From Chryseobacterium binzhouense (GTDB taxonomy: Bacteria > Bacteroidota > Bacteroidia > Flavobacteriales > Weeksellaceae): a stretch of DNA of 64,000 bases. The position numbers and the translations under genes are program-made. The stretch lies in contig NZ_VKOG01000002.1 of assembly GCF_007474545.1 (NCBI RefSeq), positions 372,001-436,000 of the forward strand, read 5' to 3'. Below the pieces are notes generated by a model. The model was not told the origin of the DNA and made no database searches. It worked only from the letters and a program-made list of their open reading frames with translations. Position 1 is the stretch's first letter, and every line of letters starts with the position of its first letter. Shown here piece by piece: positions 31,425-64,000 of this stretch.

Positions 31425-31451
31425 AATAATATTATTTTTATGATTTTTAGG

Positions 31452-31913
31452 TTACTTTATATATATATCCTGGTCTGATTGTCTTCCGGTTTTTAGAATT
31501 TTTTTATACCAGCCAAATTTGTTAATACTTAAGATGAACAAGGTAAGAACAGTTGCTAAAAAAGATAACAAAAACATGTTCAGTGCAAGGGCAGATCCTA
31601 TTGCCGATGCAGCCCATAAAGCAGTGGATGTTGTAAGCCCCTGCATGCTTTTGGAACTATCTTTAAATGCCAGTCCAGCTCCGATAAATCCTAAACCGGC
31701 AGGTATCGCCGCCAACATTCTCGCTATTGCAGATTTATCATCTGTAAGATGCGAGGCAACTGCCACAAATAAGCAAGAAGCCATACAGAGAACGCCAAAA
31801 GTGCGAACCCCTGCATCTTTATGGGCAGTTTCTCTTTCGAAACCTATTATCGCGCCAAAAAACAGTGCTAATAATAATTTTCCGGCAAGTAAAAGTTCAA
31901 ATTTTAGATCCAT
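31452..31913 (-). CDS. MgtC/SapB family membrane protein
   Basis: 153 aa with four to five helices. The family signature GAIIGFERETAHKDAGVRTF (residues 20-39) and IPAGLGFIGAGLAF (about 70) are both present. It lacks the C-terminal soluble domain of Salmonella MgtC. MgtC proteins affect membrane ATP synthase and Mg2+ starvation responses. Its function in a metal island is unclear. It is 11 bp after the phosphoglycerol transferase gene. Confidence 0.88.
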   Translation of the reverse strand: MDLKFELLLAGKLLLALFFGAIIGFERETAHKDAGVRTFGVLCMASCLFVAVASHLTDDKSAIARMLAAIPAGLGFIGAGLAFKDSSKSMQGLTTSTALWAASAIGSALALNMFLLSFLATVLTLFILSINKFGWYKKILKTGRQSDQDIYIK

Positions 31914-31924
31914 TTTATATCACT

Positions 31925-33919: not shown

Positions 33920-34029
33920 AAACAAGTTTTATAAGTGATTAAAACATTATTATCCTTTGAAATCAATTTTATGTGATAGAGAACTAACCATTAGATTTTA
34001 TTTATTATCAATCTATTTTTACCGTTCAT

Positions 34030-34926
34030 CTATAAGTGTATTACACTTTCATCATAGCCTTCATATTCGATTTGAAAAGTGGTGTGGGTTATTTTAAAAT
34101 CTGTTGTCACTTTGTCTGTTAATATTTTCAGGATTTCGTTGCGATTTTTATTTTCATCTGCAATCACATGAGCACTCATGGCATTAACGCCTGACGTAAG
34201 AGACCAAACATGAAGATCGTGGAGTCCCTTGATTTCCGGGAGTTCTTCCAGTGATGCTCTAAGCTTGCTGATATCTACATCTTTCGGTGTACCTTCCAAT
34301 AAGACATTAACCGCTTCCATAAGCAACTTTAAGGTTCTGGGAATGATTAATAGACCTATTGCCGCAGAAATGATCGGATCTGCGTAATACCATTGTGTTG
34401 TCAGCATTATCACACCTGCGATCATTACTCCTACGGATGTCAGCATATCCGACAAGACCTCAAAATAAGCACCTTTCATATTAAGACTTTCATTGGAGTC
34501 CTTTCTTATGATAAGGATACCGATGATATTGACCACAAAACCAATTCCTGCAACGATCATCATGGAGCCACTTTGCACTTCAGGAGGATTTTTAAATCTT
34601 TGAAATGCCTCATATAAAACAAATAATGAGATACCCAATAGCACAACAGCATTAATCACAGCAGCCAAAATCTCTGTGCGATAGTACCCAAATGTTTTTT
34701 CAGGACTAGCCTTTCTCTCACCAATTTTGATTGCAATAAATGCTAGGAGTAAACCGACAACATCTGTTAGCATGTGAGCAGCATCCGCAAGCAATGCAAG
34801 ACTTTTTGTTGCAATTCCTCCAATGACTTCAGCAATAAGATAAGTACCACTTAGTGCTAGGACGATGAGTAAATTTTTCTTATGTCTGCTTGATGCAGAT
34901 CCAGTCTGTTTATTTGTGTCGCTCAT
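34030..34926 (-). CDS. cation diffusion facilitator (CzcD-like)
   Basis: 298 aa with six helices. The metal site is ADAAHMLTD in helix 2 (HxxxD) and its counterpart VLSDMLTS in helix 5 (here S/D rather than H). The cytoplasmic C-terminal domain includes HDLHVWSLTSG. CDF proteins exchange Zn2+, Cd2+ or Co2+ for H+ at the inner membrane. It lies 26 bp after the bestrophin gene and belongs to the same metal regulon by position. Confidence 0.92.
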   Translation of the reverse strand: MSDTNKQTGSASSRHKKNLLIVLALSGTYLIAEVIGGIATKSLALLADAAHMLTDVVGLLLAFIAIKIGERKASPEKTFGYYRTEILAAVINAVVLLGISLFVLYEAFQRFKNPPEVQSGSMMIVAGIGFVVNIIGILIIRKDSNESLNMKGAYFEVLSDMLTSVGVMIAGVIMLTTQWYYADPIISAAIGLLIIPRTLKLLMEAVNVLLEGTPKDVDISKLRASLEELPEIKGLHDLHVWSLTSGVNAMSAHVIADENKNRNEILKILTDKVTTDFKITHTTFQIEYEGYDESVIHL

Positions 34927-34952
34927 AATTTTATGTATTTACTAGATTGACT

Positions 34953-35831
34953 CTACATTTCGAAGTAAGTATTATTTTCTTTTTTAACAGGAATATCATT
35001 TTCTTTGATCATCTGTAAAATATTGATTTCTATAGTTTGTGCAATAGATGTCATTGGCGTATCCACAGGAGTATTCTCGAAAGGATCCTGCATGATGATT
35101 GCTGTTTTCTCAATGGCTATAAATAGCAGAGGAATAGTGATCGTTGTAATAATTTCCAAGGTGAGCTGGGAATCTTCCAATCCGAAAGGGAGTATAAAAG
35201 CAAAAACATATATAAGAGTATGCAGTAAAATACTATAGGCACGTGGAAATACCGTATTTTTCAATCTTTCACATTTTCCCATATTGTCACACAGCCTCAT
35301 GAGAACTTCGTTAAGCTGAACCTCCTTGAAATCTGATACCAATCCTTTTTCGGCTATTTGTCTTAAGTGATAAGAATGTTCATCCAAAATTGCATTGGGT
35401 ATATTAACAGCGTTAATCTGATGCATATTCAAATACTCCCCTACTTTACCGGAAAAAGGCTGTTTTCTTAATGCTTCGCCTAACGCATAGACCCATACGA
35501 TTTGTCTTTCTGCAAATATTTTAACGTCCGCACTATCCTGAGGAATGAACTGAATAATTAATCGGATAAGAGACCTGGAATCATTAACAATAGCACCCCA
35601 AACGGTTCTTGCTTCCCACCATCTCTCGTATGACTGCGCCGTCCTAAATGCAAGTAGCAGTGATACAGCAGTTCCTAAAATTGCGGGAATGCTTAATGGA
35701 ATTGATATTTTTTTGAAAATAGGATGCAGATCCAACAAACCTATACCTACAGCAAGTATAACAATCAGTAATATTTGGCTTTTAATTTGATCAATAAAAT
35801 ACCAGATTGAAATTTTCTTGTTTAGTAACAT
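34953..35831 (-). CDS. bestrophin family ion channel
   Basis: 292 aa. The bestrophin/UPF0187 pattern is present: RTAQSYERWWEARTVWGAIVNDSRSL around residues 63-88 (key residues R63, Y67, W70-W71, W77) and LPFGLEDSQ with later QDPFENTPVDTPM. Family members form pentameric anion or cation channels in the inner membrane. Its role next to metal exporters is not established and charge balance is one guess. Confidence 0.88.
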   Translation of the reverse strand: MLLNKKISIWYFIDQIKSQILLIVILAVGIGLLDLHPIFKKISIPLSIPAILGTAVSLLLAFRTAQSYERWWEARTVWGAIVNDSRSLIRLIIQFIPQDSADVKIFAERQIVWVYALGEALRKQPFSGKVGEYLNMHQINAVNIPNAILDEHSYHLRQIAEKGLVSDFKEVQLNEVLMRLCDNMGKCERLKNTVFPRAYSILLHTLIYVFAFILPFGLEDSQLTLEIITTITIPLLFIAIEKTAIIMQDPFENTPVDTPMTSIAQTIEINILQMIKENDIPVKKENNTYFEM

Positions 35832-35956
35832 AACTTTTGTTTATAGATTTGATATAACATTATGATACGTAGTTCACGATTTAATTCGATTCGTAGCATA
35901 ATGTTATTTTTTATTACAGCTGAAACTTTTATATAAAGGCTTTCGTAATAATAAAT

Positions 35957-37231
35957 CTAATCTTCATGCCCTCCTGAATTAGATAATTTAGCATTGACGA
36001 AGAATGCACCTTTTACCACAATGTTTGTATCAGGTGCAATTTTGGTCACTGGAGTGATTGCAGTATAACCTAGATCTGAAGAACCTTTAACAATTTCTAT
36101 TTTCTCAAAATTCAATGTTTTTCCTTGATTCTTGGTATGCGCTGCCTCTTTTGTACCTTCCTCTTTCTCACCCCCTTCTTCCTCTTCAGCATGTTCTTCA
36201 GGCTTTTTAGAAGTCTGTATGAAAACATAGAATTTACCGTCAGCTTCCACGATTGCTTCATCAGGAACGGCAGCGGTGCTTGAGTTTCCAAGGCTTACCA
36301 TTCCGGTAACATTCATCCCATCGATCAACCCCACTTTATTTCCTGTAACACTCGCATGTACAGAGATCGTTTTACTCTCATTTTCGAATGACGACCCGAT
36401 ACTAAATACGGTAGCGTTATACAAAGTTTCCGGATTATTGGTCAGCTTAAACTGTACAGTTTGTCCAACTTTCATTTTAGGTAGATCCTTTTCAAAAACC
36501 TGAAGATCTAAATGGATAGAACTATTATCAATAATATCAAGAACTGGTGATGCCACATCAACATAACTTCCAATCTGCGCATTGATACTGCTTACGGTTC
36601 CACTGATCGGTGAAGTTATAACCAACCCAGATCGTAGATTACCATTGCTTACTTTACCCGGGCTGATCCCCATAAGCTGGAGCTGTCTCTGTAGTGATGA
36701 TCTTTGGGTTCTTAAACTTTTTAATTCAGCATCAGAGCTTTGCAGATTCTTTTTTGCTCCGGCATCATTATCAAATAGTTCACGTTGCCTTCTATATTCC
36801 TGTTCAGCAAACGCGATCCTGCTGTTCACTGTAAGATATTGCTCCTGAAGCTGAATATACTCGGGATTATTGATTGATGCAATTACCTGCCCTTTCCTCA
36901 CATGATCTCCTATCTGTACATTTAATGTCTTAATCACCCCACCATACAGAGAGGTAACGGTAGCTTTTCTATTGTTGGGAACACTCAATACACCATTGGC
37001 TTTAACAAGTGAGGTCAGATCTTTCATCTCAATTTTACCTAAGGAGATTCCGACTGCTTTCATTTGTTCTTCTGTTAATGCCGCGATCGTTTGCGGTGCC
37101 TCTTCATGAGCCTCCTCTACCTGTTCGGTTTTTGCTTTTACTTCCGTTTCCTCAGAGGCTTCTTTTTTTCCACAGCTTAAGACTAAAAAAGAAATTAACA
37201 GCGTAGATACTATATTATATTTAATTTTCAT
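35957..37231 (-). CDS. czcB: RND efflux periplasmic adaptor (CzcB/CusB family)
   Basis: 424 aa. Lipobox LVLSC (residue 20) anchors it to the inner membrane. Lipoyl and hairpin regions follow (TVTSLYGGVIKTLNVQIGDHVRKGQVIA, key motif GDHVRKG), then a coiled coil and beta-barrel domain. Near 355 there is an acidic/His-rich loop (KKPEEHAEEEEGGEKEEG), which could sample metal. It joins the RND pump to the outer-membrane factor. The stop of the pump gene lies 1 bp upstream of its start, so the two are co-translated. Confidence 0.92.
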   Translation of the reverse strand: MKIKYNIVSTLLISFLVLSCGKKEASEETEVKAKTEQVEEAHEEAPQTIAALTEEQMKAVGISLGKIEMKDLTSLVKANGVLSVPNNRKATVTSLYGGVIKTLNVQIGDHVRKGQVIASINNPEYIQLQEQYLTVNSRIAFAEQEYRRQRELFDNDAGAKKNLQSSDAELKSLRTQRSSLQRQLQLMGISPGKVSNGNLRSGLVITSPISGTVSSINAQIGSYVDVASPVLDIIDNSSIHLDLQVFEKDLPKMKVGQTVQFKLTNNPETLYNATVFSIGSSFENESKTISVHASVTGNKVGLIDGMNVTGMVSLGNSSTAAVPDEAIVEADGKFYVFIQTSKKPEEHAEEEEGGEKEEGTKEAAHTKNQGKTLNFEKIEIVKGSSDLGYTAITPVTKIAPDTNIVVKGAFFVNAKLSNSGGHED

Positions 37232-37232
37232 T

Positions 37233-40200
37233 TTATTTGTTTATGATAGAATTAATGGTAATAACAGATTGATTAACCTGTTGAATCGATTCGAGATACT
37301 TTAATTGAATATTGGTAGAAGTCTGAAGCGCAAAAAGATATTCAACGTAGGAAATTTCTCCTGTTTTATATCCCAATTGTCCGGCTTTAGCTATTTTCTC
37401 AGCATTGGGTATAGCCTGATTAATATAATAATTATATTGCTCTACATCCTGCTGATATTGATTCAAAGCGTTTTCCAGTTGCGCTTCCAGCTGTTTTTGC
37501 TGTAATTTTGCATTAGATTCCGCTACTTGCTTTTGGAACTCCCAAGATTGCATTCTCGCTTTTGTAGCACCGAAAGTCAGGGGAATCGTAACGCCAATAG
37601 TTGCTGCGTGAAATCTATTTCCCGCATTAAAATTCCGATCCATACCATTGATCGTCTGGGTACCGATTAAAGACTGATTGGTGTAACCTATACTGAAATC
37701 AGGTAGGCCCAGAGACCTTTCAACGTTTTTATTTTTTTCTGCTATGGTCATCTCCTGATAGTAAGACCTTACTGTTGGATGATTCGCTATTGACGCGCTG
37801 TCAAATACATAATTAGCTTTCAGGGGCTCATAATTTGTGTTATAAGGAACCGAGATGTCTCCCGAAGTATTCAATAAGGTTTTTAAGTTTTTGTATGCAT
37901 TATTCAAATAAACTTCATTTTGCTTCAACAACAAATTGATCTCCCCTTTCTGAGTTTCTGCAGTATTGATCTCTATCTTTTTAATATCTCCTGATTTAAA
38001 TCTGACCGTAGCAATTCTTATAAAATCCTGATATAAACTATCCAGATTTTTTAATTTTGACTGGTTAAATTGCAGATATTCGATCTGATAGTAATAGGTC
38101 CTAACCTGTCTTGCAAGTTCGTTGACCGAAATCTCCTTATTGATCTGCTTTCCTTTGATCTGTTCAGCGATAAGTTCTCTTCTTGCTTTAAACAATGTTG
38201 GAAACGGAATACTTTGAGATATAGAAAAAGATTGATCGAATTTTTTACTGTTGTATTGGCCTAACTGAGCATCTAAACTCATTTTTGGAAGTTCTTTAGC
38301 AGTAGGTTTCAGTGCCTCTGTTACTTTAATATCCAAATCTTTCGACCGCATTAAATTATTGTTGGTCAATGCGATGCTCGTAGCTTCCTCAACTGTAACA
38401 GGGGTACCTTGTTGTGCGTTAAAGGTCTGTCCAATGAATAAAAAACCTAAAACTAAAACCGCTGTCAGTGGCTTATTACCTGAAGGCTTTTTGATTTTTA
38501 GTTTAGTACTGAAGATAATGTATAACATCGGTAAAACAAAAAGAGTCAAGAAAGTTGCTGTAACCAGTCCCCCGATTACAACGGTCGCCAAAGGTTTCTG
38601 AACTTCTGCCCCGGCTCCGGTTGAAATTGCCATAGGTAAAAATCCTAATGATGCGACTGTGGCTGTCATTAAAACAGGTCTCAGACGAGTTTTAGTTCCT
38701 TCCATCACACGTTTTAAAATATTGGTTTCACCTTCCTTCTCTAACTCGTTAAATGTTCCGATCAACACAATACCATTAAGTACCGCTACACCAAATAATG
38801 CAATAAACCCAATTCCCGCGCTGATACTAAAAGGCATACCGCGAAGCATTAACGCGAATATACCGCCGATAGCACTCATTGGAATTGCCGTAAAGATCAA
38901 GGCAGCCTGCTTTAGCGAACCAAAAGTAAAATATAACAGCATAAAGATCAAAAATAATGATACAGGTACAGCAATGGTCAGTCGTTTACTGGCAGCTTTA
39001 AGATTCTCAAATTGTCCGCCATATGTATAATAATATCCTGATGGTAATTTTTCTTTATTAAGCTTCTGCTGGATTTCTTCTACTACACTTTCTACATCTC
39101 GGCCTTTTACGTTAAAACCAATGACGATTCTCCTTTTACCTGCCTCACGACTAATCTGTGCGGGGCCAAGTTTATAATTGATATTGGACACCTGTGAAAG
39201 CGGGATCTGTATTCCTGTCTTCGTAGACACCATCAGATTGTTGACATCATCAATACTGGTTCTATGTAAACTATCCAAACGAACCACCAGATCAAACCTT
39301 CTTTCATTCTCAAATACCTGACCTGCAGCCTGACCTGCAAAAGCAGTACTTACAGCAGTATTTACGTCTTCAATATTCAGCCCGTAATTAGCCATTCTTG
39401 TGCGGTCATATTCAACATTAATTTGCGGAAGACCACTAACACGTTCGATCTGTGGAGCACTCGCACCATTAACAGACTGAATAATTTTTGCTGTTTTATC
39501 CGCATATATCGCTAAAGAATCTAAATTTTCACCGAAAATTTTAACCGCTACATCTTGTCTGATTCCTGTCATCAACTCATTGAAACGCATCTGGATCGGT
39601 TGATTTTTTTCGAAAAATACCCCGGGAATAGCTTCAAGCTTTTCAGAGATCTCATCTGCTAATTCATCATATGATTTTTTTGTTTTCCATTCACTTTGCG
39701 GTTTTAAGATCACCATCATATCAGTAGCTTCAGGAGGCATTGGATCAGTAGGCACTTCAGCAGCACCGGTCTTCCCTACAACCATTTTAACTTCGTCAAA
39801 CTGCTTGATCAGCCTGGAGGCCTGCATAGAGGTTTCAATACTCTGACTTAATGAACTTCCCTGTGGAAGAATACAGTGAAAAGCAAAATCACCTTCTTGG
39901 AGTTGAGGGATAAACTCGCCCCCCATTCTTCCAAATATAAATAATGAAACTGCAAATAATGCAACAGTAACACTTACTAACCAATATTTTACTTTTAAAG
40001 CTTTCTCTAGTAGAGGTTGATAGATTTTTTGGAGTCGGTTCATCATTTTATCTGAGAAATTTTCTTTATGCGAGATTTTCTTCGATAAAAAAAGTGCACT
40101 CATCATTGGAATATAGGTCAATGATAATATCAATGCACCAAAGATTGCAAAACCTACAGTTTTAGCCATCGGAGTAAACATCTTACCCTCAACACCTACT

Positions 40201-41597
40201 AACGTTAAAATAGGAATGTAGACAATCAAAATAATAATCTCCCCAAATGCTGCGCTGCTTCTGATTTTAGAAGCTGAAAGAAATACCTCTTCATCCATCT
40301 CAGACTGGGTAAGAAGACGTGTTGTTTTCCGCAATCCTAAGTGATGAAGAGTCGCTTCAACAATAATAACAGCTCCGTCGACAATTAATCCAAAATCAAT
40401 CGCCCCTAAACTCATTAAGTTGGCACTTACTCCGAAAACGTTCATCATTCCCAAAGCAAAGAGTAAGGACAACGGAATGGCAGATGCCACAATAAGACCG
40501 GCTCGTAAATTACCGAGAAATACTACCAGCACAAAAATCACTATCAACGCTCCTTCGATAAGATTTTTCTCGACAGTATCAATAGCTCTGCCAACTAGAT
40601 TAGTTCTGTCTAAATAAGGCTCAATAATCACATCAGTAGGTAAAGATTTTTGAATAGTTGGTATTTTTTCTTTGATTAATTGCACTACCTCATTACTATT
40701 AGCACCTTTAAGCATCATCACCACTCCACCTACAGCATCCACCTCACCATTAAATGTCATGGCACCATATCGAACCGCACTTCCCAAACGAACCTCAGCA
40801 ACATCTTTAATGAATATAGGCACACTCCCTGTTTCATTTTTAACTACAACATTCCCAACATCTTCAAGAGAGGTCACAAGTCCAATTCCACGGATAAAAT
40901 AAGCATTAGGCTTTTTGTCAATGTAGGCTCCGCCTGTGTTCTGATTATTTTTTTCAAGAGCTGCAAAAATATCAGAAATACTAACTCCCATCGCTCGTAG
41001 ACGATCAGGGTTAACAGCGACCTCATATTGTTTTAGCTGTCCTCCGAAGCTGTTAATCTCTGCAACTCCGGGAGTACCATTAAGCTGTCTTCGAACGATC
41101 CAGTCCTGCATTGTACGAAGTTCTTTGGAATCGTATTTTTTCTCACTTCCTTTCTTTGGATGAAGGATGTATTGATATACTTCCCCAAGTCCTGTACTTA
41201 CCGGAGCCAACTCTGGTGTGCCAATTCCTTTTGGAATTTCTTCAGCAGCCTGCTTCAGCTTTTCACTGATCAATTGGCGGGCAAAATAAACGTCAACCTC
41301 TTCTTTAAATACAACAGTGATTACAGACAAACCGAATCGTGAAATACTTCTGGTCTCCTCAATATCAGGAACATTAGCAATACTCTGTTCTATAGGGAAT
41401 GTCACCAACTGTTCAACTTCCTGACCGGCCAAAGTAGGACATACCGTGATTATTTGAACCTGATTGTTGGTGATGTCGGGTGTGGCATCGATCGGAAGTT
41501 TGGTTGCGCTCCAAACTCCCCAAATAATCAACAACAAGGTCATTATACCAATGACAATCTTGTTCTTGATGCTAAATCTTATGATTTTATCTAACAT
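37233..41597 (-). CDS. czcA: CzcA/CusA heavy-metal RND pump fused to a TolC-type outer-membrane factor
   Basis: 1454 aa from the ATG at 41597; an in-frame upstream start would add 15 residues unlike the family. Residues 1 to about 1040 are a complete RND pump (DITNNQVQ, IDFGLIVDGAVIIVEA, large periplasmic loops and the second six-helix bundle). From about 1050 a hydrophobic stretch ending NAQQ looks like a signal peptide. The last 395 residues are an outer-membrane factor (VTVEEATSIALTNNN onwards, long coiled-coil hairpins). It exports Zn/Co/Cd or Cu. A 13-bp inverted repeat at 41689-41701 (GCAAT, GCT, ATTGC) lies in its upstream region. Confidence 0.92.
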   Translation of the reverse strand: MLDKIIRFSIKNKIVIGIMTLLLIIWGVWSATKLPIDATPDITNNQVQIITVCPTLAGQEVEQLVTFPIEQSIANVPDIEETRSISRFGLSVITVVFKEEVDVYFARQLISEKLKQAAEEIPKGIGTPELAPVSTGLGEVYQYILHPKKGSEKKYDSKELRTMQDWIVRRQLNGTPGVAEINSFGGQLKQYEVAVNPDRLRAMGVSISDIFAALEKNNQNTGGAYIDKKPNAYFIRGIGLVTSLEDVGNVVVKNETGSVPIFIKDVAEVRLGSAVRYGAMTFNGEVDAVGGVVMMLKGANSNEVVQLIKEKIPTIQKSLPTDVIIEPYLDRTNLVGRAIDTVEKNLIEGALIVIFVLVVFLGNLRAGLIVASAIPLSLLFALGMMNVFGVSANLMSLGAIDFGLIVDGAVIIVEATLHHLGLRKTTRLLTQSEMDEEVFLSASKIRSSAAFGEIIILIVYIPILTLVGVEGKMFTPMAKTVGFAIFGALILSLTYIPMMSALFLSKKISHKENFSDKMMNRLQKIYQPLLEKALKVKYWLVSVTVALFAVSLFIFGRMGGEFIPQLQEGDFAFHCILPQGSSLSQSIETSMQASRLIKQFDEVKMVVGKTGAAEVPTDPMPPEATDMMVILKPQSEWKTKKSYDELADEISEKLEAIPGVFFEKNQPIQMRFNELMTGIRQDVAVKIFGENLDSLAIYADKTAKIIQSVNGASAPQIERVSGLPQINVEYDRTRMANYGLNIEDVNTAVSTAFAGQAAGQVFENERRFDLVVRLDSLHRTSIDDVNNLMVSTKTGIQIPLSQVSNINYKLGPAQISREAGKRRIVIGFNVKGRDVESVVEEIQQKLNKEKLPSGYYYTYGGQFENLKAASKRLTIAVPVSLFLIFMLLYFTFGSLKQAALIFTAIPMSAIGGIFALMLRGMPFSISAGIGFIALFGVAVLNGIVLIGTFNELEKEGETNILKRVMEGTKTRLRPVLMTATVASLGFLPMAISTGAGAEVQKPLATVVIGGLVTATFLTLFVLPMLYIIFSTKLKIKKPSGNKPLTAVLVLGFLFIGQTFNAQQGTPVTVEEATSIALTNNNLMRSKDLDIKVTEALKPTAKELPKMSLDAQLGQYNSKKFDQSFSISQSIPFPTLFKARRELIAEQIKGKQINKEISVNELARQVRTYYYQIEYLQFNQSKLKNLDSLYQDFIRIATVRFKSGDIKKIEINTAETQKGEINLLLKQNEVYLNNAYKNLKTLLNTSGDISVPYNTNYEPLKANYVFDSASIANHPTVRSYYQEMTIAEKNKNVERSLGLPDFSIGYTNQSLIGTQTINGMDRNFNAGNRFHAATIGVTIPLTFGATKARMQSWEFQKQVAESNAKLQQKQLEAQLENALNQYQQDVEQYNYYINQAIPNAEKIAKAGQLGYKTGEISYVEYLFALQTSTNIQLKYLESIQQVNQSVITINSIINK

Positions 41598-41756
41598 GAG
41601 AATATAATTTTTATTGAATGTCACAACTACCTTTTGGAACAACTATTTGTTCTAAAAATCGAGCGACAAAAATGAGTAAGAATACAACGCAATGCTATTG
41701 CAATGTTTCCATAACTGTTTTGACGAAAGACAATTCTTCCGTCTGATTAACAAAAA

Positions 41757-42279: not shown

Positions 42280-45200
42280 CTACCTTCTTCGGACAACATT
42301 CTGAAAATTATCTAAGTAAATATTCTCTTTTTGGTTTAATACTTTATCTATAAAATCTACTGTTGTTAAATTGTTATATAAAACTGTATTTTCCCTCGCT
42401 CTTTCTCTCACATAATTTCTATTTTCATTCGCTTTAAGCTGTTCCTCTTTTTCTATTCTGTATTGAACTACTAAATTTTCTCTAACTGCTGGAAGCTCTT
42501 CCAGCTTTTTATCCAGTTCCGCAATTTTATCTTCAGTCATTTTGGTTTGATATTCAATTTGAGTAACATCTATTCCTTTCTGAGCTAAATTTTCAATTAC
42601 TTCTTGTACTTGAACTTTATGAAGTTCAATTGTTTTTTGATATGATGGTAATTGGGTTGCCCAATATTCAGCATTTGCATCGCCATTTTTCGAATAGCCT
42701 TCAATTCTATTATATGAATGCTCGGCTTGGGTTACCAATTCTTTTACTTTCAAAACATCTTCATATTTTCTCAGAACAAATGCACTATCGGCCAAATGTT
42801 TATTTTTTTCACTTTCAATCTTCTTTTTAATGAGTTCGATTTCGATATTGGCTCTGGTTTCGGGATTGGTAATGATGGAGGTTTTTAATTCTTGAGTCCT
42901 GATGTCTGAAATATCCAAAACATCGGCTCCTTTTTTCATTGCTTCTAAATATCTTGCCTGTTTGGATTGCAGTTTTTGAAGCATAAACACATCAATACTG
43001 TCATTGGTCAGCATAAAATTAACCCGCACATTTTCGTTCTTGTTTCCTTGCCTCCAGGCTCGTCCTTCCACTTGTCGGAGTGACGTAAAATTATATGGCA
43101 ACGTAAGCATATAAACATCGGTTGTGTTTTCCTGAAGGTTCATTCCTTCCTGAATGGCTTCACTTCCAATAACTACTTTTATTTTTCCTTCATTAAAATC
43201 ATTTTGAATAGAAATTCTTTGGTTTTTATTGGTCGCCCCGGTAATGATTCCGATTTCTTCGGGTTTGTAACCAATTTCTGTTATGAGATATTCTTTTATT
43301 TTTGGAAACTGAGCAACTGCTAATTCAGAATACACAATTTGTCCTGAGTCAGGAAGATCTTTTTTGTTCTGCCTTATCAAATCCATCGTGTCTTTTAACT
43401 TCGGAGAATTTTCTATGAATTTTTTTATTGAAGGTTCTTCGCCATCATAAAATGGCGATAAATACGGTGAAATAGCAATCAATCTGGCATTGAGAATATG
43501 TGTTAAAATTGCTCCTTTTTCAGTCTCACTGAAATTTTCATTGAGCAGCTCATACTGTTCTCTTGTGAGATCATTCTGTTCAATTTTATATTCTTTGTTA
43601 ATTTTGTTGGGACGAATTAATTCAGGATTGTCTTCTTCTCCTTTTATATCAATGAATTCCGAAAGTAATTGTTGAAACAGCGAATTATTTTTAAATCTCC
43701 GAACGTTGGCTTTAAATTTCACATCACCCTTTGCATCAATTTCCATATCATTATCCGCTTCCATAAAGGTCTCGAAGAAAGTATTGACGTTGAAATATCC
43801 CGATTCTTCTAATCTTTTATTTGCTATTAAAGAAAGAATGGAATAATATTCCAAAGGCTTGTTGGTAAAAGGCGTTGCGGAAAGCAAGGTCACATTTCTT
43901 CCGTCGTTTTTGTCTTGAATGTACTGAGCTGCCATCCAGGTATTGATTCCCAGTTTGGAAGTCTGTTGGTTTTGACTTCTAAAATCGGACGCAAATCTTC
44001 GGTCCTCAATTTTTACTTTTCCTACAATATGATTGGCATTGTGAACTTCGTCGTAAGTCAAATGGTCGAATCCAAAATCTTCCCAGTCATAGATTTTACC
44101 ACGCTTCATTTTTCCCTCAATCTCCTTTTCTTTCTGAAACTCAATTTGGAGGTCTCTTTCGGTATTGGTAACGCCCTTCATTTCACTTGCAGAGATGTAA
44201 CTGAATTTTGACGAAAGTTCTTCGGTTATTTCTGATGAAAATCCAATATTGTTAAAACCTTCATAAGTAACGATGGTTATTTCTCCGTCTTTATTATCAA
44301 ATTTTGAAAGGTCATAATCTTTCCCCAAATTCCCTAAAACATTAACTTTCGCGTTGGGAATCGTTTCAAAAATCGTTTCCACCCATTGTTTCATAATGCT
44401 GTCATTCGGAACTACGATGATTGGTCTTTTCGCATTTCCTCTTTCCATTGCTTCGTGCATTGAAAGGATTCCGGACAATGTTTTTCCATAACCCACTTCG
44501 TGCGCTAAAAGTCCTACGCCTTTTGTGGTCTGTCTTCCGATTCCCGCCTTCTGAACCTCTGCTAATCTAAATTCCTTTCCTTTGAAATTCTTATGAATCT
44601 TTGAAAACAATGGGAATTTAGAATAATCCGGAACGTGGATGTTATTGTAATTGCGGTTAAAATCTTTTACAAAACGAGTTCTAATGTCATCTGATAATTC
44701 TTCACGTACAAATTTGTAAAACAAATCATTCGCAGCAGCTTTTCGTCTTTCTCTGACTAACGCATTTCGCTCTTTATCGCTTCCTGTAACCGTTTCATTA
44801 TCTACAAAGCTTCGCACTTCCCAAGCTGAAGAACCCGCAAAGGCTTCACTTGACAAAGTGCCTACAAAGTCTTTGAATCTTTCCGCAAGATTGTAATCTA
44901 CAATGACTGATTCGGTACGTTTTGTAATATGATTATATTGGTCTTTTTCTATTTGGCCTAACTCAAATTTGTGCACGAACTCGTGGTTCGGACTGATATA
45001 AATTTCATCTAAAGATTTCGCTTTTGGTAGAACATTTTCTAATAATGCTTTTTGTTTTTCGTACTGATTTTCCGTTCCACCAACAGCATTTTTATCTGCA
45101 AAATCTTTTTCGAGCTGCTCTAACTTCGCATAAATATTTCCTTCTGCATAATAAAAATCGTGAATCCAAACTCCATCAGAATAATTTGAAAATTTGGAAT

Positions 45201-47439
45201 GTTTTTCGTGATTGTTGAGCGTTCCATCGTAAGATGTATCTCTGAATGCTTCAATTTGTTCTTTCGTAATGTTTGAACTATTTTGCAAGGAAGTATTTAC
45301 AATTTCATCCTGTTTGGAGAATTGATATTTTAAAATTCCTTTCTTTATGGAAGGCTCCGTTTGGACTTTATATTCATTCTCAGTTCTCGTATTGTGAATA
45401 GAAATTATTCTATCACTTTTTTCTATCAATTCTTTTAATTTTTCTTCTGAAAACGATGCTGGTTTTGTGATTAAATCTTCGCGCAGTTTTTCATACTTTC
45501 TTATTTCAGTCGTAATGGTGGGAGATTTAAACTTGATGTTATTGAGTTTAGAAAGTACCAATTCAATTTTTTCTTGAGTTTCTGTTAAATTCAACTCATC
45601 TATTTTCTCCGCAATAATTTCTTTTTTTACAGGAACTTTTGTAACAGAATTGGACTCAGTATTTTCTAAAAACAAATCTTCAAAAAGATTTCCGATTCTC
45701 TCGGTTTCTTTTTTATTTTTAAATTGTTCAATCTTAAAGAGAGCTTCATCCAAATTTCCGTGGATATAATTTTCCAAACGCCCAAAACGATTGGTTTTCT
45801 CACGGTTTTCCCCGAGAACTCTTGTGTGATTATTTTCAAAATATTTGGAAATATCCGCAGAAATCTGGTGATTGTTTTTTTTGAGAATGATAATATCCGT
45901 TCCGATTTGTGTTCCTGCAAAAGCGCCATTGGGTAAACGGAAACCTTCCAAAACACTAGCATTCTGTAAATTCTTTTGTCGGTTGAGCCAACCTGATGGA
46001 AGAACCATCGCCAAAACGCCGTTGGGTTTCAAAGAATCTAATGACCGTTTAACAAAATAATCTTCGTATTTTGAAATTTTAGGTTCTTCGCCTAATCCTT
46101 TGTAAAGCCCACGATGTTCGCCATAAGGCGGATTTCCGATGACCAAATCATATCTTTCTGAAAAATCTTTTGAGTCTTTTTTATTACCTCTGTCATCAAT
46201 AAATTCAGTTTCAAACGAACGAAGGTTGATCTCGACTTCGGGATGTAGAATTTTTGCAATTTTCGCCGTGGTTTCGTTGATTTCAAAGCCTGTAATTTTA
46301 GAATTTACAGATAATTCGCGAGTGGCATAGATAAAATTTCCTGTACCAACGCTGGGTTCTAAAACAGAAATTCCTTTTTGAGTTTTGAAATGGTCTTTGA
46401 TTAAATTGCGGACTGCATCGACAATTTTATCTTGTGTGTAATATTCATCTAAAATCCCTCTGCCTTCTTTTGCGGTTCCGCCACTTTGGAATTGATTGCA
46501 GATTTCTTTTAAATCATCCGTGACTTTCAGATTTTCTTTGAGAAGAATTCTGTTGTCATTAGAAACAAAACAAGCTGCAGAAACTACTTCCGCAACTTGT
46601 TCATTATTAAGTTTTCGCCCTTTATATTTTGAAATGAGAACATCTAGCTCTACCTTATTTGTTGAATTTTCACTTACCTCGGAAGGTCTTCTATCGGATC
46701 TTCTTCTATCGGATATAGCTCTCCCGGATACGATTCCGCCCAAGGAATATTCTCTTCCCTCATTTTTTTCATCATTTTGCGGTTGTGTTCCTCCATTGGA
46801 TCCTCTTCCTCGGTTTCGGTTTCCCAAATCGCTCCGTTCTGTGCCTGCAAGTCCATTTCCAGCATTGTTGCTGCCCACTGCTTGTCCGCTTTCGTAACTT
46901 CCGTTTTGCTCGGATTGGATTTTTGAGCCAAGTTCTCCAGTGTTTTGTTCAGGTGTTCCGTTTCCCACTTGCTGAGGATCGGATGTTGTTCCGGATTCAA
47001 TTGCATTGCTTTCATTTTCAGAAATTTTTGGTTCAACTAAATTAGTATTTTTATCTTGAAAATTGAGTTTATTCTCTAAATATTCGGTCAGGTCTTGATT
47101 CCCATTTTCAGAAATTTCATACAACGGACGAACGTCTTTGATATTTTTGCCATTAAATTCTGTAAGAATTTTTCTGGTTATTGCATTTCCTGTTCTGTCC
47201 CCGCTCAGACATAAAAACATTTTGCCATCATAATTCTGGTATCTATTGAGGAACTTTTTGCTATTGGAACCGGAATTTAAGGTAATAATTGTTCTATTAT
47301 TGACTTGCTTGTTCAATTGAAGAAGCTCCAAGAATGAAAGCATATCCTTACTGTTTGTGAAAACAATAAGTTCCTTTTTATTTCCTTCAACTACAGAAAT
47401 GTCATCATTTATCTCATTAAAAAAATCTTCATCTTTCAC
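42280..47439 (-). CDS. Toprim / N6-adenine methylase / SNF2-like helicase fusion (DarB-like)
   Basis: 1719 aa. Domains in order: Toprim-like fold (about 22-122, FLCLSGDRTGN in place of DxD); a low-complexity Gly/Asn/Arg/Glu linker (about 140-260); adenine methylase with motif I LEPSVGTGNF (about 360) and motif IV NPPY (436-439). A long middle region follows, then a superfamily 2 helicase (VGYGKTLSG near 983, DEVH near 1130, RAWRQG near 1465) and a coiled-coil tail. No nuclease motif is visible. The methylase plus helicase layout recalls phage P1 DarB antirestriction proteins. It overlaps the lipoprotein gene by 4 nt. Confidence 0.88.
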   Translation of the reverse strand: MKDEDFFNEINDDISVVEGNKKELIVFTNSKDMLSFLELLQLNKQVNNRTIITLNSGSNSKKFLNRYQNYDGKMFLCLSGDRTGNAITRKILTEFNGKNIKDVRPLYEISENGNQDLTEYLENKLNFQDKNTNLVEPKISENESNAIESGTTSDPQQVGNGTPEQNTGELGSKIQSEQNGSYESGQAVGSNNAGNGLAGTERSDLGNRNRGRGSNGGTQPQNDEKNEGREYSLGGIVSGRAISDRRRSDRRPSEVSENSTNKVELDVLISKYKGRKLNNEQVAEVVSAACFVSNDNRILLKENLKVTDDLKEICNQFQSGGTAKEGRGILDEYYTQDKIVDAVRNLIKDHFKTQKGISVLEPSVGTGNFIYATRELSVNSKITGFEINETTAKIAKILHPEVEINLRSFETEFIDDRGNKKDSKDFSERYDLVIGNPPYGEHRGLYKGLGEEPKISKYEDYFVKRSLDSLKPNGVLAMVLPSGWLNRQKNLQNASVLEGFRLPNGAFAGTQIGTDIIILKKNNHQISADISKYFENNHTRVLGENREKTNRFGRLENYIHGNLDEALFKIEQFKNKKETERIGNLFEDLFLENTESNSVTKVPVKKEIIAEKIDELNLTETQEKIELVLSKLNNIKFKSPTITTEIRKYEKLREDLITKPASFSEEKLKELIEKSDRIISIHNTRTENEYKVQTEPSIKKGILKYQFSKQDEIVNTSLQNSSNITKEQIEAFRDTSYDGTLNNHEKHSKFSNYSDGVWIHDFYYAEGNIYAKLEQLEKDFADKNAVGGTENQYEKQKALLENVLPKAKSLDEIYISPNHEFVHKFELGQIEKDQYNHITKRTESVIVDYNLAERFKDFVGTLSSEAFAGSSAWEVRSFVDNETVTGSDKERNALVRERRKAAANDLFYKFVREELSDDIRTRFVKDFNRNYNNIHVPDYSKFPLFSKIHKNFKGKEFRLAEVQKAGIGRQTTKGVGLLAHEVGYGKTLSGILSMHEAMERGNAKRPIIVVPNDSIMKQWVETIFETIPNAKVNVLGNLGKDYDLSKFDNKDGEITIVTYEGFNNIGFSSEITEELSSKFSYISASEMKGVTNTERDLQIEFQKEKEIEGKMKRGKIYDWEDFGFDHLTYDEVHNANHIVGKVKIEDRRFASDFRSQNQQTSKLGINTWMAAQYIQDKNDGRNVTLLSATPFTNKPLEYYSILSLIANKRLEESGYFNVNTFFETFMEADNDMEIDAKGDVKFKANVRRFKNNSLFQQLLSEFIDIKGEEDNPELIRPNKINKEYKIEQNDLTREQYELLNENFSETEKGAILTHILNARLIAISPYLSPFYDGEEPSIKKFIENSPKLKDTMDLIRQNKKDLPDSGQIVYSELAVAQFPKIKEYLITEIGYKPEEIGIITGATNKNQRISIQNDFNEGKIKVVIGSEAIQEGMNLQENTTDVYMLTLPYNFTSLRQVEGRAWRQGNKNENVRVNFMLTNDSIDVFMLQKLQSKQARYLEAMKKGADVLDISDIRTQELKTSIITNPETRANIEIELIKKKIESEKNKHLADSAFVLRKYEDVLKVKELVTQAEHSYNRIEGYSKNGDANAEYWATQLPSYQKTIELHKVQVQEVIENLAQKGIDVTQIEYQTKMTEDKIAELDKKLEELPAVRENLVVQYRIEKEEQLKANENRNYVRERARENTVLYNNLTTVDFIDKVLNQKENIYLDNFQNVVRRR

Positions 47440-59304: not shown

Positions 59305-59970
59305 TTAATTAAAGAGGTAATGGTATTTGGTGATGATGTCGCCAACAATGGCTTTGTCTATATTGATGTAATTACGAAGCACCGGAACCTGATACAGATA
59401 AGGGATTTTCTTGGCATTCTCTAATCGTAAATTGATGTACAGAATATTTCCGTTGATATTTCTGACCCTTGTAAAAATCTTTTCAATCAGCATTTCCCTA
59501 TCCATTGCGTCCATTAGAAAATCTTTTTCCTCATTTAGAATGTCCTGCGTAACTTCCTGCTGAAGTTTCGTCGTCTGCTTCCCGATTTCAACATAATATT
59601 TTGAAATGAGTACCGAATATTCAGGATGCTGTGCTGATAGATCCAGCATTTTATTGGAGTTCGTTACTATTTTACCCAAATATTGATAGAGATAAATGAG
59701 TTTTTTGCTCTGGGTCAAGGCTGAATTCACATTTTTCAGTTGTTGATAGATGTATTCCTGAATCGCAATGATCTGCGTGATTTTATTGTTGATATCATCA
59801 TACAATTCTTTTTGCTTTTCATAGGAATCCAGAAAAGCCTGTTCGCTTCCTAATCGAACACCGTGGTTTACGGTGATCTGTGACAGAAGTTTGTCGTTAA
59901 TCACTATTTGCTGGCTTTTTACAGATGCAACAGAGAAGAAAAAAACTCCGGAAAAAAATATTTTTTTCAT
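59305..59970 (-). CDS. exported conjugation-operon protein, C-terminal IVxxIM motif (copy 3)
   Basis: 221 aa from the ATG at 59970, which begins a signal peptide (MKKIFFSGVFFFSVASVKS). It is mostly helical with coiled-coil potential (DINNKITQIIAIQEYIYQQL). A segment LSAQHPEYSVLISKYY matches LASEHPEYAIFGVKAS in copy 1, and the C-terminus NIDKAIVGDIITKYHYLFN matches the other copies. It is paralogous to copy 1 in this sense. Confidence 0.7.
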   Translation of the reverse strand: MKKIFFSGVFFFSVASVKSQQIVINDKLLSQITVNHGVRLGSEQAFLDSYEKQKELYDDINNKITQIIAIQEYIYQQLKNVNSALTQSKKLIYLYQYLGKIVTNSNKMLDLSAQHPEYSVLISKYYVEIGKQTTKLQQEVTQDILNEEKDFLMDAMDREMLIEKIFTRVRNINGNILYINLRLENAKKIPYLYQVPVLRNYINIDKAIVGDIITKYHYLFN

Positions 59971-59971
59971 T

Positions 59972-60697
59972 TTAGAAAGATTTAATGTTATCCATGATGC
60001 TTTCAACTACTTGCTTATCCCTGTTGACATAATATTGAAAGGCTCTTTTGTTACGTTTTACCTTGGCTTTAATATCCCTTATCTTTAAAAGCATATGGGT
60101 AGAATTTCTGCTTATCGCCTTTACTTCACCCAAAGCATAGTCTAATAATACTTTACGTTCTGATTTTTCCATTTGGTTGATGGCTCCGTAAGACAAAATG
60201 ATCCCGGTTACCAGCCGTGTTACCATTTGCAGATCATCAACAAACTGAACCTGAGAAGGCAAAACAGCGATAATGGAATAGGGAGCATCGTTTATTTCAT
60301 TGATAATAGCAGTCTGATTGTTTGTTATTTTGGTTATTTCCCTGCTCATTGCTATTCCGGTGGGTATCGCTTGAATGGCAAATGAAACAATTCGCAATCT
60401 GTCCTGAACTTTGGTGATTTTTTCTTTAAAATTGTTCCATTGGTTTCTGTTGGCCGTTTCTACGGTGGCATTCGCAATTTGTTTTTGTCGCATTTCTTTT
60501 TGCCTGTCGTGTTCTTTCATCGTGGCATTGATTTCTATATCCATCATCGGAAATGAAACATTTTCCTGTTGCCATGCAGGGGTAGACCCACCACCGGAGG
60601 ATCTCAATACCAAATAAACTAGAGGAATAAGCAAACTGACAACAATTTTATTTTTGCCACCGTAAGGTCGGCGAATCTCATTTTTCGATTTCATCAT
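59972..60697 (-). CDS. membrane-anchored conjugation-operon protein, C-terminal IVxxIM motif (copy 2)
   Basis: 241 aa. The N-terminus is basic with a hydrophobic segment (about 17-32, IVVSLLIPLVYLVLRS), then SSGGGSTPAWQQE and a helical region. It ends with NRDKQVVESIMDNIKSF, a weaker copy of the shared motif. One base separates its stop from the next gene's start, so translation is coupled. Confidence 0.65.
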   Translation of the reverse strand: MMKSKNEIRRPYGGKNKIVVSLLIPLVYLVLRSSGGGSTPAWQQENVSFPMMDIEINATMKEHDRQKEMRQKQIANATVETANRNQWNNFKEKITKVQDRLRIVSFAIQAIPTGIAMSREITKITNNQTAIINEINDAPYSIIAVLPSQVQFVDDLQMVTRLVTGIILSYGAINQMEKSERKVLLDYALGEVKAISRNSTHMLLKIRDIKAKVKRNKRAFQYYVNRDKQVVESIMDNIKSF

Positions 60698-60705
60698 AGA
60701 AAAAT

Positions 60706-61431
60706 TTAAAAATTCCGTTTATACCGGTTCATTATATTTTCAACAATAGCTTTGTCTGTATTGATATATCCGGCAAATGGATTAATAGAATTCCAGAATC
60801 CCAATCGGTTTGCTTTTTCTAATCGCAGTTTGATTGCTAAAAGCCAAAGCTTCAGATTTTTCACATTACCGGAAATATTATGAAGAATTTTGTAGCGGTC
60901 TCCTGCTGTTGCAAGATTCAGCTCTCCGGAAGCGAGAATATCAGAAACGTCGGTAACAATCTTTAGACTTTGCTCATACGTTTTTTGTGAAGCTTTCACC
61001 CCAAAAATGGCATACTCAGGATGTTCTGATGCTAGTTGTACCACTTGTGATGAATAAGCATAACATTTATTGAGCTCAGAGTAGATTTCCTGTGCTTGGA
61101 TTCCATTTTGTAAAGTGCCGGAAACCTCTTTTAAACCCTTCAGAATTTTATTCTGAATGTCATTAGCCGCTACCATCTGTGTTCCCACCCAGGTCTGTGC
61201 GTCCTTTAATTTTGAAGTTTCCTCAATGACTTCGTTCTGCTTGGCTTTTAGATTTTCAGAATAAAGAATCATTGCCGCTGTTACCGTAGGGTCGATGTAG
61301 GTGTTTTGGGCGAATCCCATTGTCCCCCAGAGGGAGAAAATTAGTAGAAAAACCTTCAATATAATATGGTTCGCCAGAGATGAAACGTGACGAAATCCTC
61401 TTGGGAAATTTATAGGTTTAAACGTTTTCAT
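60706..61431 (-). CDS. exported conjugation-operon protein, C-terminal IVxxIM motif (copy 1)
   Basis: 241 aa with an N-terminal hydrophobic signal (about 23-41, ending MGFAQ). The mature part is helical (NLKAKQNEVIEETSKLKDAQ) and contains LASEHPEYAIFGVKAS and C-terminal NTDKAIVENIMNRYKRNF. It occupies the slot of TraI in Bacteroides-type tra operons, directly after traG with a 14-nt overlap, but does not look like the DUF4141 TraI sequence. The role is probably in the periplasmic part of the channel or pilus. Confidence 0.7.
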   Translation of the reverse strand: MKTFKPINFPRGFRHVSSLANHIILKVFLLIFSLWGTMGFAQNTYIDPTVTAAMILYSENLKAKQNEVIEETSKLKDAQTWVGTQMVAANDIQNKILKGLKEVSGTLQNGIQAQEIYSELNKCYAYSSQVVQLASEHPEYAIFGVKASQKTYEQSLKIVTDVSDILASGELNLATAGDRYKILHNISGNVKNLKLWLLAIKLRLEKANRLGFWNSINPFAGYINTDKAIVENIMNRYKRNF

Positions 61432-64000
61432 AAGCGTAATTTTGTTTACTGATTAATTCTGAAAAACTGATATTACGGTCTTCCAGTTGCTGTGAAATGA
61501 TTTTAAAAACATTCTTTCCTTTGTTCTCTTTTTTCATCATTCTATAAAAGGAATTGATTTTTTGATCTAAAGGATTTTGGTATAAATTCACGAGTGACAC
61601 TAAGTTTTCCAGACTGTCTCCGAAGGTTTTTAAATCACCAACTATTCTGCGCAATGCTTCATCATAGTCTCCGTATTGGTGCACATAATATTCAACTGCC
61701 GATTTTTCCGGTTTTTCTGTAGTGTAGGTGAGATATTGTTCAAGCGAAACTTCATTTCCATAGACCTCTCCTTTTGAACCTCTTTTTAAGTAAAATTCTT
61801 TGAATCGGCTTCTCCCGAATTTGTTGTTGAGATTGTTGATGGTAAAAATCTTGTTTTGCTCTACTTTATTGAGCGATAGCAATGAAGCGATTTTATCAAA
61901 GTTGTCTTTGAACTTCGTCTGGTCAAGCAAAATAAATGTATCCGAATTATTGATGATGGAATCTTTAACCACTGCATTTCCAATAATGTCATCCAGTTCC
62001 TGCGTTACCACCACCGCTTCTCCCCAAAATTTCCTCACCGTTTTATATAAATAAAGAATGTATCCACCCATCAATTTACTAGCAATGGCCTTCCATGCTT
62101 CTTCGATTATTAAGGCTTTTCTGCGGTCTTTTCTGAGTCTCATTTTCTGAATGAAAGTGTCCATAATAATGAGCGTTACTATCGGAAAGAGCTTGGGATT
62201 ATCTTTTACATTATCAATTTCAAAAACGATGAAAGATTCATCGAACAGCGTATTATCTGCACTTTCATTGAGCGTTGTTCCGTACCTTCCGCCTTTGTAA
62301 AAATCTTTCAGTACAAATAAAAAGGTGCGCAGATTAAACTCTTTCTCTATAATATTATGTTTTTTATTATTCAGGTAAATAGGAAGAAATTGATCGCAAT
62401 AATCATAAAACCCATTGAACGAAAGTTCTGTTACAACCAGCTTTTCTTCCAGTTCTTTTATTTTCCTGATGATGGCTTTTCTAAAGGATTCATTCCATTC
62501 TTCTGCTGATCGGGGTTGCCTGATGATGTCATTCGACTTGATTAAAATCAACTGCGTTTCATTGTATATTTTCCTTCTTTCTTCATCGTTCAGCGTGTCA
62601 TACGCTTCATACACTTTATAGAAATTTTCGCTTTCATATTCCGGGTTATTGATGTTCTTATCAGGATGATAGAATTTCAATAATTTTCTTCCCGCTTCCT
62701 TTATTTCATCGGAACTGGCATCGAAAGTAATTCCCAAAATGTCATAGTAAGTATGCTGTCCTTTTGCTTCATTCTCATATTCCGTGAATAGATCATCTTC
62801 GTGAATGTTGTATTTTCCGAGATATAGAATCAGTTCTTCAGAAGTTTTATTTTCATACCATCGAGTTCCAGCATTGAAATACCCGTGGTAAAACGACATC
62901 AACACATTGTCTAAAATGGATTTTTGTGCGGAAGACATTGAAGAATCCGGACCTTGCCAAATCAAGAAGATCAGGTTGGTTAAAAATTCTATTTTTTCGA
63001 TATTAAATTCTTTTTGATCCATAAGAAAAGGATTCATCGTGATTGGTTTTTCTTCAGTGTATTGGATGTATCTGCCTCCCTTATATTTGCACGTTCCCGA
63101 ATACGAATCTCCTGTATCAACAATGACCACGTCATAATTGTAGGTCAAATACTGCTCAATAATATTGTTCATCAGGAATGATTTCCCCGAACCTGACGGT
63201 CCTAATACAAACTTGTTCCTGTTGTTTATTCTTCCTGTTTTCATCGGTAGATCCGATGGGTCAACTTTTAGCGGAACACCTTGTCTGTCGGTGAATCTCA
63301 GGTAGAAATTGGACTCTTCATTGACGGGGTAACTTTCCTTAAAAAAAAAACACAAGGCCGCTTCGCTTGTCGTCATAAATAAATCATACTCCCTAAGTTC
63401 TGTTCCATTGCCCGGAATAGCTGACCGAAAGAGTTCCAATTGGTTATAAGCGTTTTTAGAAACAATGATTCCTTTCGTAAAAAGCTTGTTTTCAATCATT
63501 GACTGAATATTTTCCATTTTCTCCAGTGTCTGTGCTGAAAAAAGGATTGAAAAATGAGCATTGACAACGAGCTGTCCGTCAATGGCTATGTTATGAAGCA
63601 GGGTCTGGATTTCATCTGCTATAATGGCGTTGGACGGAGAATTGTTGGCTGCTCCTTCGTGCTTTTTCTTTTTTTTGTCGAGTTCCCTCTGCTGTTGTGC
63701 CTGAAGCGGAATCGTAATGATCTGATTGTAGACAATGGTCTCATAATCTTCTAGTTCATTGATAAAACTAAAATTATCAACTGCTGTTTCTGCTGCTGCA
63801 CCGTTACCGCCGAGAACAGAGTAAGGCTCAATTTCTGAAGGAAGATCAATATTTTCTACATCCACGTAGGAAATATTTTTTACAAACCTGTTTCCGATCT
63901 GCAAAAATTCGTTGGTGCTTTTGATATTATCAAATATGGGAGAATCGGAAAATTGCATCGACAAAACACCTGATATATAATATTCAAAATCTTTCTCAAA
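61418..64000 (-). CDS. traG: TraG conjugative ATPase (VirB4-type) with internal J-domain, partial
   Basis: At least 861 codons are open to the right edge, and the true start lies beyond it. A TTG at 63964 is in frame but has coding sequence before it. Positions below count from that codon. VirB4/TraG N-domain (1-245) is followed by Walker A GPSGSGKSF (255-263; 63179-63202) and Walker B RKALIIEEAWK near 620. Residues about 403-470 (62555-62758) are a DnaJ J-domain: YYDILGI, EIKEAGRKLLKFYHPDKN with HPD at 433-435, and FYKVYEAYDTLNDEERRKIYNE (key EAYxxLxDxxxR). The ATPase powers conjugative transfer and pilus assembly. Confidence 0.93.
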   Translation of the reverse strand, partial: FEKDFEYYISGVLSMQFSDSPIFDNIKSTNEFLQIGNRFVKNISYVDVENIDLPSEIEPYSVLGGNGAAAETAVDNFSFINELEDYETIVYNQIITIPLQAQQQRELDKKKKKHEGAANNSPSNAIIADEIQTLLHNIAIDGQLVVNAHFSILFSAQTLEKMENIQSMIENKLFTKGIIVSKNAYNQLELFRSAIPGNGTELREYDLFMTTSEAALCFFFKESYPVNEESNFYLRFTDRQGVPLKVDPSDLPMKTGRINNRNKFVLGPSGSGKSFLMNNIIEQYLTYNYDVVIVDTGDSYSGTCKYKGGRYIQYTEEKPITMNPFLMDQKEFNIEKIEFLTNLIFLIWQGPDSSMSSAQKSILDNVLMSFYHGYFNAGTRWYENKTSEELILYLGKYNIHEDDLFTEYENEAKGQHTYYDILGITFDASSDEIKEAGRKLLKFYHPDKNINNPEYESENFYKVYEAYDTLNDEERRKIYNETQLILIKSNDIIRQPRSAEEWNESFRKAIIRKIKELEEKLVVTELSFNGFYDYCDQFLPIYLNNKKHNIIEKEFNLRTFLFVLKDFYKGGRYGTTLNESADNTLFDESFIVFEIDNVKDNPKLFPIVTLIIMDTFIQKMRLRKDRRKALIIEEAWKAIASKLMGGYILYLYKTVRKFWGEAVVVTQELDDIIGNAVVKDSIINNSDTFILLDQTKFKDNFDKIASLLSLNKVEQNKIFTINNLNNKFGRSRFKEFYLKRGSKGEVYGNEVSLEQYLTYTTEKPEKSAVEYYVHQYGDYDEALRRIVGDLKTFGDSLENLVSLVNLYQNPLDQKINSFYRMMKKENKGKNVFKIISQQLEDRNISFSELISKQNYAYENV

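Follow-up and report, generated by a model that had tools for sequence, protein, structure and literature searches.

PMC9259494 places VirB4 in the donor's inner-membrane complex, and this paper and a 2025 review of type IV secretion (PMC12857230) describe pilin as being extracted from the membrane by VirB4 together with VirB11, which docks beneath the central ring. R388 has a VirB11, and neither its VirB4, TrwK, nor that of Thermoanaerobacter (4ag5/4ag6) has a J-domain in the aligned ranges. In Bacteroidota, the TraG ATPases of family TIGR03783 belong to systems that share their neighbours, namely DUF4134/DUF4133, TraM, DUF4138 (TraN), and the kinds of coupling protein and relaxase. Here we describe a TraG that shares the whole backbone and the Walker motifs of these ATPases and also contains a complete J-domain. 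It is encoded by an integrative and conjugative element (ICE) in a 64,000-nucleotide stretch of Chryseobacterium binzhouense DNA, hereafter the window (GCF_007474545.1, contig NZ_VKOG01000002.1, positions 372,001 to 436,000).

A search of the open-access literature, mostly by title and abstract, found no description of a VirB4 or TraG with a J-domain. In the parts of these papers available to us, PMC10434189 has a DnaJ domain and TraG in separate genes, PMC6491836 names TraG with no mention of DnaJ or a chaperone, and the main text of PMC12857230 contains no occurrence of DnaK, DnaJ or J-domain. The annotations of two plasmids that carry the protein (L117, L118) call it a TraG ATPase and leave the J-domain unmentioned.

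The VirB4-like TraG doubles as a J-domain protein

The traG gene lies on the minus strand at 61418..64000, with its 5' end beyond the window, which holds the C-terminal 860 of 1024 codons; the complete product is 1024 amino acids (aa) long (full gene in L006). Copies in C. limigenitum and C. taichungense match it at 100% identity over these 860 aa. The protein scores 456 bits against TIGR03783 (cut-off 261.55) and 436 bits against PF19044 (cut-off 25.8), and it has the P-loop of TraG/VirB4 proteins, with the Walker A motif GPSGSGKS at 63179..63202. The segment RKALIIEEAWKA at 62087..62122 is what we take to be the Walker B region.

A preliminary description of this DNA, made from the sequence alone, had placed a J-domain between these two regions, and the domain is indeed there (helices I-IV, 62561..62752, minus strand; residues 581-646 of TraG). 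Every motif lies where that description had it: YYDILGI of helix I at 62729-62749, EIKEAGRKLLKFYHPDKN at 62654-62707, which contains the HPD motif (62660..62668), and EAYDTLNDEERRKIY at 62564-62608. The segment it had delimited, 62555-62758, is longer than the domain by two codons on either side, a difference of no consequence. It had proposed a profile search and an assessment of HPD conservation as checks. In the first, the Pfam DnaJ profile PF00226 matched residues 417-480 of the window's 860 codons over profile positions 1-63 of 63, scoring 66.4 bits where the gathering cut-off is 27.8 (E 2.4e-18). The J segments of relatives matched at E<=0.001 in 64 of 64 cases, and Sec63 was among the sequence matches of the TraG J segment.

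Structure prediction is consistent with this assignment. The modelled J segment matches DnaJ structures in fold, and both halves of the modelled TraG match VirB4 structures. The full-length model had a predicted template modelling score (pTM) of 0.42 and a weak ATPase half, with a predicted local distance difference test (pLDDT) <50 over residues 383-486 and 726-862; a second model, of residues 394-933, had a pTM of 0.62, and its strands and helices match the VirB4 ATPase domain. A sequence search of the part of TraG that precedes the J-domain against solved structures gave no match. In a viral-library fold search there were two matches at E<=0.001, one of them a conjugation ATPase fragment; DnaJ domains of phages and giant viruses came next, at E >=0.003. 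That the HPD or helix motifs arose by chance is rejected by the profile score, the fold match and conservation in 82/82 distinct J rows.

The TraG J-domain has an HPD motif and a basic helix II in common with DnaJ/Hsp40, but unlike in those proteins it sits inside an ATPase, and no further DnaJ domain was matched. It belongs to an insert region of 162 aa (62426..62911, minus strand; TraG residues 528-689) that runs from DNVLMSFYHG to just before LSFNGFYDY, between two helical flanks. We conclude that in this ICE lineage TraG is both a VirB4 ATPase and a J-domain protein.

The HPD motif is maintained while the surrounding linkers drift

For conservation analysis, 141 TraG-like frames were reduced to 99 alignment rows (>=800 aa, differing in the last 700 residues), 82 of which are J rows. 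The HPD motif, subject of the second proposed check, is unchanged in all 82 distinct J copies, or in 82/83 rows if the J-type insert of one diverged relative, L165, is counted. Its codons vary, with the proline encoded by all four codons, and the basic residues of helix II are retained. The linkers around the J-domain and the C-terminal tail are the most variable parts of the protein: entropy is 1.42 and 1.60 in the linkers before and after the domain and 1.57 in the tail, compared with 1.06 in the J-domain and 0.17-0.36 in the ATPase core. The ratio of nonsynonymous to synonymous substitution rates (dN/dS), from 627 pairs >86% identical, is 0.068 for the J-domain and 0.157 and 0.079 for the linkers. 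Judged from these alignments, purifying selection has maintained the HPD motif while the linkers around it drifted.

Profile, models and conservation together make it very probable that the J-domain is active toward Hsp70, and they support the likely Hsp70-recruiting role that the preliminary description had suggested. Its further suggestion, that DnaK of the recipient could be involved, is unsupported, VirB4 being part of a complex of the donor (PMC9259494). The interpretation given there was thus partly supported.

The J-domain was gained once, at a site that accepts different insertions

A search with a 208-aa query covering the J-domain and its flanks found TraG with a J-domain (J-TraG) in 103 of the 321 genomes of the window's family, distributed over 16/33 genera. 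None of the 130 matches had internal stops. Some TraG match at 1e-50 is present in 188/321 of these genomes, compared with 103 for the J form. In samples of the order and the phylum, J-TraG occurs in 20/395 and 3/395 genomes, respectively, all in the window's own family (own genome counted). In a class sample, 10/395 genomes had a TraG match at 1e-80, two of them from the window's own genus; among the other eight, seven were aligned and are all J-less, and the eighth (G657) has a 526-aa frame outside the alignment. J-TraG is also found in Capnocytophaga (4 loci), a Chryseobacterium plasmid and a Sphingobacterium plasmid; because the Capnocytophaga and Sphingobacterium cases came from other searches, the order, phylum and class samples evidently miss rare cases. 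There were 2,940 matching plasmid records, and two of the 10 aligned (L117 and L118) have the J-domain. When viral contigs were searched for more remote TraG, 2 and 0 loci were returned. A regular expression for the J signature, applied to 80 loci, hit a TraG-sized frame in 74; one match fell in a smaller frame of L073.

The preliminary description had allowed that close relatives might carry the domain, and the carriers indeed make up an entire clade within TraG. On a tree of 27 J and 17 J-less rows built without the insert columns, one change suffices to explain the distribution, with branch support of 100 (short search). This tree thus shows one gain of the J-domain, within the ATPase domain's helical lobe. 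A recent neutral insertion in one genome is rejected by the spread (103/321), the codon variation and the single gain, which lies at the base of a diverse clade.

The insert region is 155-163 aa long in the 82 J rows. The 17 aligned J-less TraGs are without a J-domain, and their insert region is 17-22 aa in 11, compared with which the J clade is ~140 residues longer between Walker A and Walker B, 70 aa in one and 121-126 aa in five. These five (L119, L121, L123, L124 and L126, from Mucilaginibacter and Bacteroidaceae plasmids) have ~100 extra non-J residues at the same site, an unrelated, helical-looking sequence in which Pfam finds no DnaJ in four cases. The helical-lobe loop thus accepts domains, with the J-domain as one of several fillings. 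L165 (L165:2105-5104), a 48%-identical TraG relative, groups with the J rows (100/100) on a long branch and is sister to the other 19 J rows in the tree (88/84). Its insert is worn but J-like, with helix I and the domain end recognisable and helix II and the HPD lost, and scores 13.3 bits against the Pfam DnaJ profile, under the cut-off of 27.8.

The J-domain may bring host DnaK to the mouth of the conjugation channel

The best explanation of these results, to which we assign a probability of about 0.55, is that an active J-domain brings host DnaK to the channel mouth, where the VirB4 ring faces the cytoplasm. The J-domain would hang on this side of the ring, bind host DnaK and trigger its ATP hydrolysis there, and the conjugation channel would thereby have DnaK loaded at its mouth. 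In the likeliest case, DnaK would hold incoming protein substrates in a transferable state and pass them to VirB4; candidate substrates are a pilin being drawn from the membrane or a relaxase needing unfolding. A host chaperone would be used because HSP70 was not found among the 20 element proteins (part of the element) scanned with Pfam. The three HSP70 matches of the genome all lie on a contig other than that of traG, and an element-borne Hsp70 partner was rejected on these two grounds.

Sec63 and Pam18 offer an analogy, in that a J-domain fixed to a translocation machine loads Hsp70 at the channel. Both act on the trans side and pull, whereas TraG has its ATPase domain in the cytoplasm, on the cis side. 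With no claim that the machines share an ancestor, the TraG J-domain could be regarded as a cis-side counterpart of these translocon-bound J-proteins. DnaK would be loaded at the cytoplasmic face, where VirB11 sits in other systems, and in contrast to R388 the 20 scanned element proteins gave no VirB11-like match with Pfam. To our knowledge, J-less Bacteroidota TraG systems also seem to be without VirB11, so replacement of VirB11 by the J-domain and DnaK is only a suggestion.

Several points weigh against recruitment of DnaK to the channel. Overall confidence in the models is no more than moderate (pTM 0.42 and 0.62). The J-domain (dN/dS 0.068) is less constrained than the ATPase parts (0.017-0.024) and the N-terminal part (0.037); these values are rough, as synonymous sites are near saturation, and the pattern indicates a constraint on the J-domain that is clear but weaker than that on the motor. 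In helix III, the E. coli DnaJ residues K48 and K51, which we take, with this numbering, to be contact residues, align mostly with tyrosine (25/32 and 21/32, respectively), and contact with DnaK could be weaker or differently tuned. L165 has a J-shaped insert (13.3 bits, below the cut-off) without an HPD, so the insert can persist when the motif is lost, and J-less TraGs are common, so TraG proteins in general can function without the J-domain. Last, the present data do not separate roles in pilin handling, relaxase handling and assembly.

An assembly role is what one alternative proposes: the active J-domain would work on TraG itself, with DnaK folding, assembling or disassembling the VirB4 oligomer and having no part in substrate handling. 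The HPD evidence is identical for this proposal and for DnaK loading at the channel, and J-proteins often bring Hsp70 to their own complex. However, the insert belongs to the ATPase's helical lobe, and otherwise similar J-less TraGs evidently fold without it; we give this alternative perhaps one chance in a few, a possibility to be kept in mind. L165, which retains a J-like insert after losing the HPD, and the five other relatives with ~100 extra unrelated residues at the same site suit a different idea, in which the domain is a spacer or a docking module for another transfer protein and no Hsp70 step is involved. The HPD is a surface loop and not a determinant of the J fold, yet it is constant in 82/82 distinct J copies despite synonymous variation, and we consider such a passive role unlikely. 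It is more doubtful still, indeed very improbable, that the J-domain directs TraG to DnaK-dependent turnover or regulation and so tunes conjugation to host stress, even though the domain has its HPD and the level of free DnaK falls under stress. We favour the loading of host DnaK at the channel mouth.

A conserved T10 tract in traG points to programmed slippage

A second feature of traG may be as important as the J-domain. The coding strand has ten consecutive T (A10 on the plus strand) at 63341..63350, within codons TGT TTT TTT TTT for C381-F384, at the predicted boundary of the N-terminal and ATPase domains (four of five TrwK matches end at 393-405). All 40 non-redundant J-TraGs (<93% identity) read TGT TTT TTT TTT at codons 381-384. 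Only 15 of the 1024 columns have a single codon, and the 11 besides these four are all Met or Trp. Among 207 conserved two-fold columns, codons 381-384 are the only four with zero third-position changes, the median being 11 on a tree of 64 coding sequences. Choice of intact genes cannot explain this constancy because TTC or TGC would also keep the frame. The homopolymer is thus kept at the nucleotide level, as in genes with programmed slippage. In J-less relatives with Phe-Phe-Phe, TTC breaks the run in 5/9 (L123, L129, L130, L131 and L132), and L119, L121, L122 and L128 have T9 or T10; L165 has no T run.

Among 137 loci (redundant), the run is T10 in 119, T11 in 6, T9 in 6, C+T10 in 5 and T8 in 1; three T9 loci (L051, L106 and L107) are in frame, with Leu replacing the last Phe. 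A majority of the copies whose run is not T10 are split in two at this point. Ten of the 130 J-TraG matches, in ten genomes (L166-L174 and L109), have frames of 637-678 aa compared with the usual 1018-1089. Nine of these short copies consist of two overlapping frames that part at the T run and are open elsewhere; L109, the tenth, has a stop at the end of the T run, with the frame unchanged. Some genomes (e.g. G031, G059, G083, G176 and G220) have an intact copy besides the split one. Where a single genome is off-frame, a sequencing error in the run is a caveat. Four genomes have the off-frame C+T10 form; as three of these are identical in sequence (L171 and L174 are identical to L170), it represents two independent sequences. 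These, L169 and L170, are diverged, with 427 synonymous differences and a dN/dS of ~0.03 in both parts, indicating that the off-frame form has not simply decayed and that ten T were kept rather than the frame.

One extra T, or a -1 ribosomal slip, at the run meets TAA at once and would give an N-terminal-only protein. The tract points to programmed slippage that would produce such a form of VirB4; phase variation and another DNA-level constraint are also possible reasons for keeping it. No VirB4 with transcriptional slippage was found in the open-access literature searched, where one capsule-loci paper surfaced. In R388, only the N-terminal domains hold the VirB4 dimer together (PMC9259494), and the 2025 review calls the reason for six extra outside VirB4 subunits unclear (PMC12857230). 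An N-terminal-only VirB4 could pair with full-length VirB4 and, lacking an ATPase domain, occupy the outer ring, and we infer that slippage may supply the outer VirB4 subunits or set the ratio of the two forms. That both features act jointly, the J-domain letting each subunit load host Hsp70 and T10 slippage giving N-terminal-only VirB4 for the outer ring, is a tentative proposal that we consider less probable than DnaK loading by itself. The open-access literature searched gave no instance of such a chaperone step for type IV secretion ATPases.

The surrounding element

A conjugation module surrounds traG, with MobC-like, relaxase, ParA-like, DUF4134 and DUF4133-like genes upstream and TrbL/VirB6-like, TraM, DUF4138 (TraN), coupling protein and M23 peptidase genes downstream; the MobC, TrbL and DUF4133 labels rest on scores under the Pfam cut-offs, and gene order helped in naming. 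Directly after traG, three consecutive genes (59305-61431) encode products of 233-241 aa that are alike by eye, with no Pfam match above cut-off. Further away, a 1719-aa protein (42280-47439) joins Eco57I-type methylase and helicase domains and has a weak Toprim match. A single 1469-aa frame (37233-41642), examined by eye only, appears to be an RND metal pump continuing into an outer-membrane-factor-like protein, and apparent cation transporter genes (29376-37231, likewise by eye) lie near it. The same genome has a second TraG, of the ordinary type without a J-domain (C9:257245-258831), near a frame that by eye resembles a group II intron reverse transcriptase (L007:4875-6770, minus strand).

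Implications

If the joint proposal is true, it would offer an answer to the question of the six outside VirB4 subunits (PMC12857230), and the slippage tract may give a handle on these unexplained subunits. If host DnaK is loaded at the channel as we favour, conjugation in a large group of Bacteroidota would depend directly on host DnaK through a J-domain embedded in the motor, and a single HPD replacement would make it testable which factor extracts or unfolds the substrates where the machine faces the cytoplasm. Our analysis suggests that bacteria with J-TraG couple their general protein-folding machine to conjugation.
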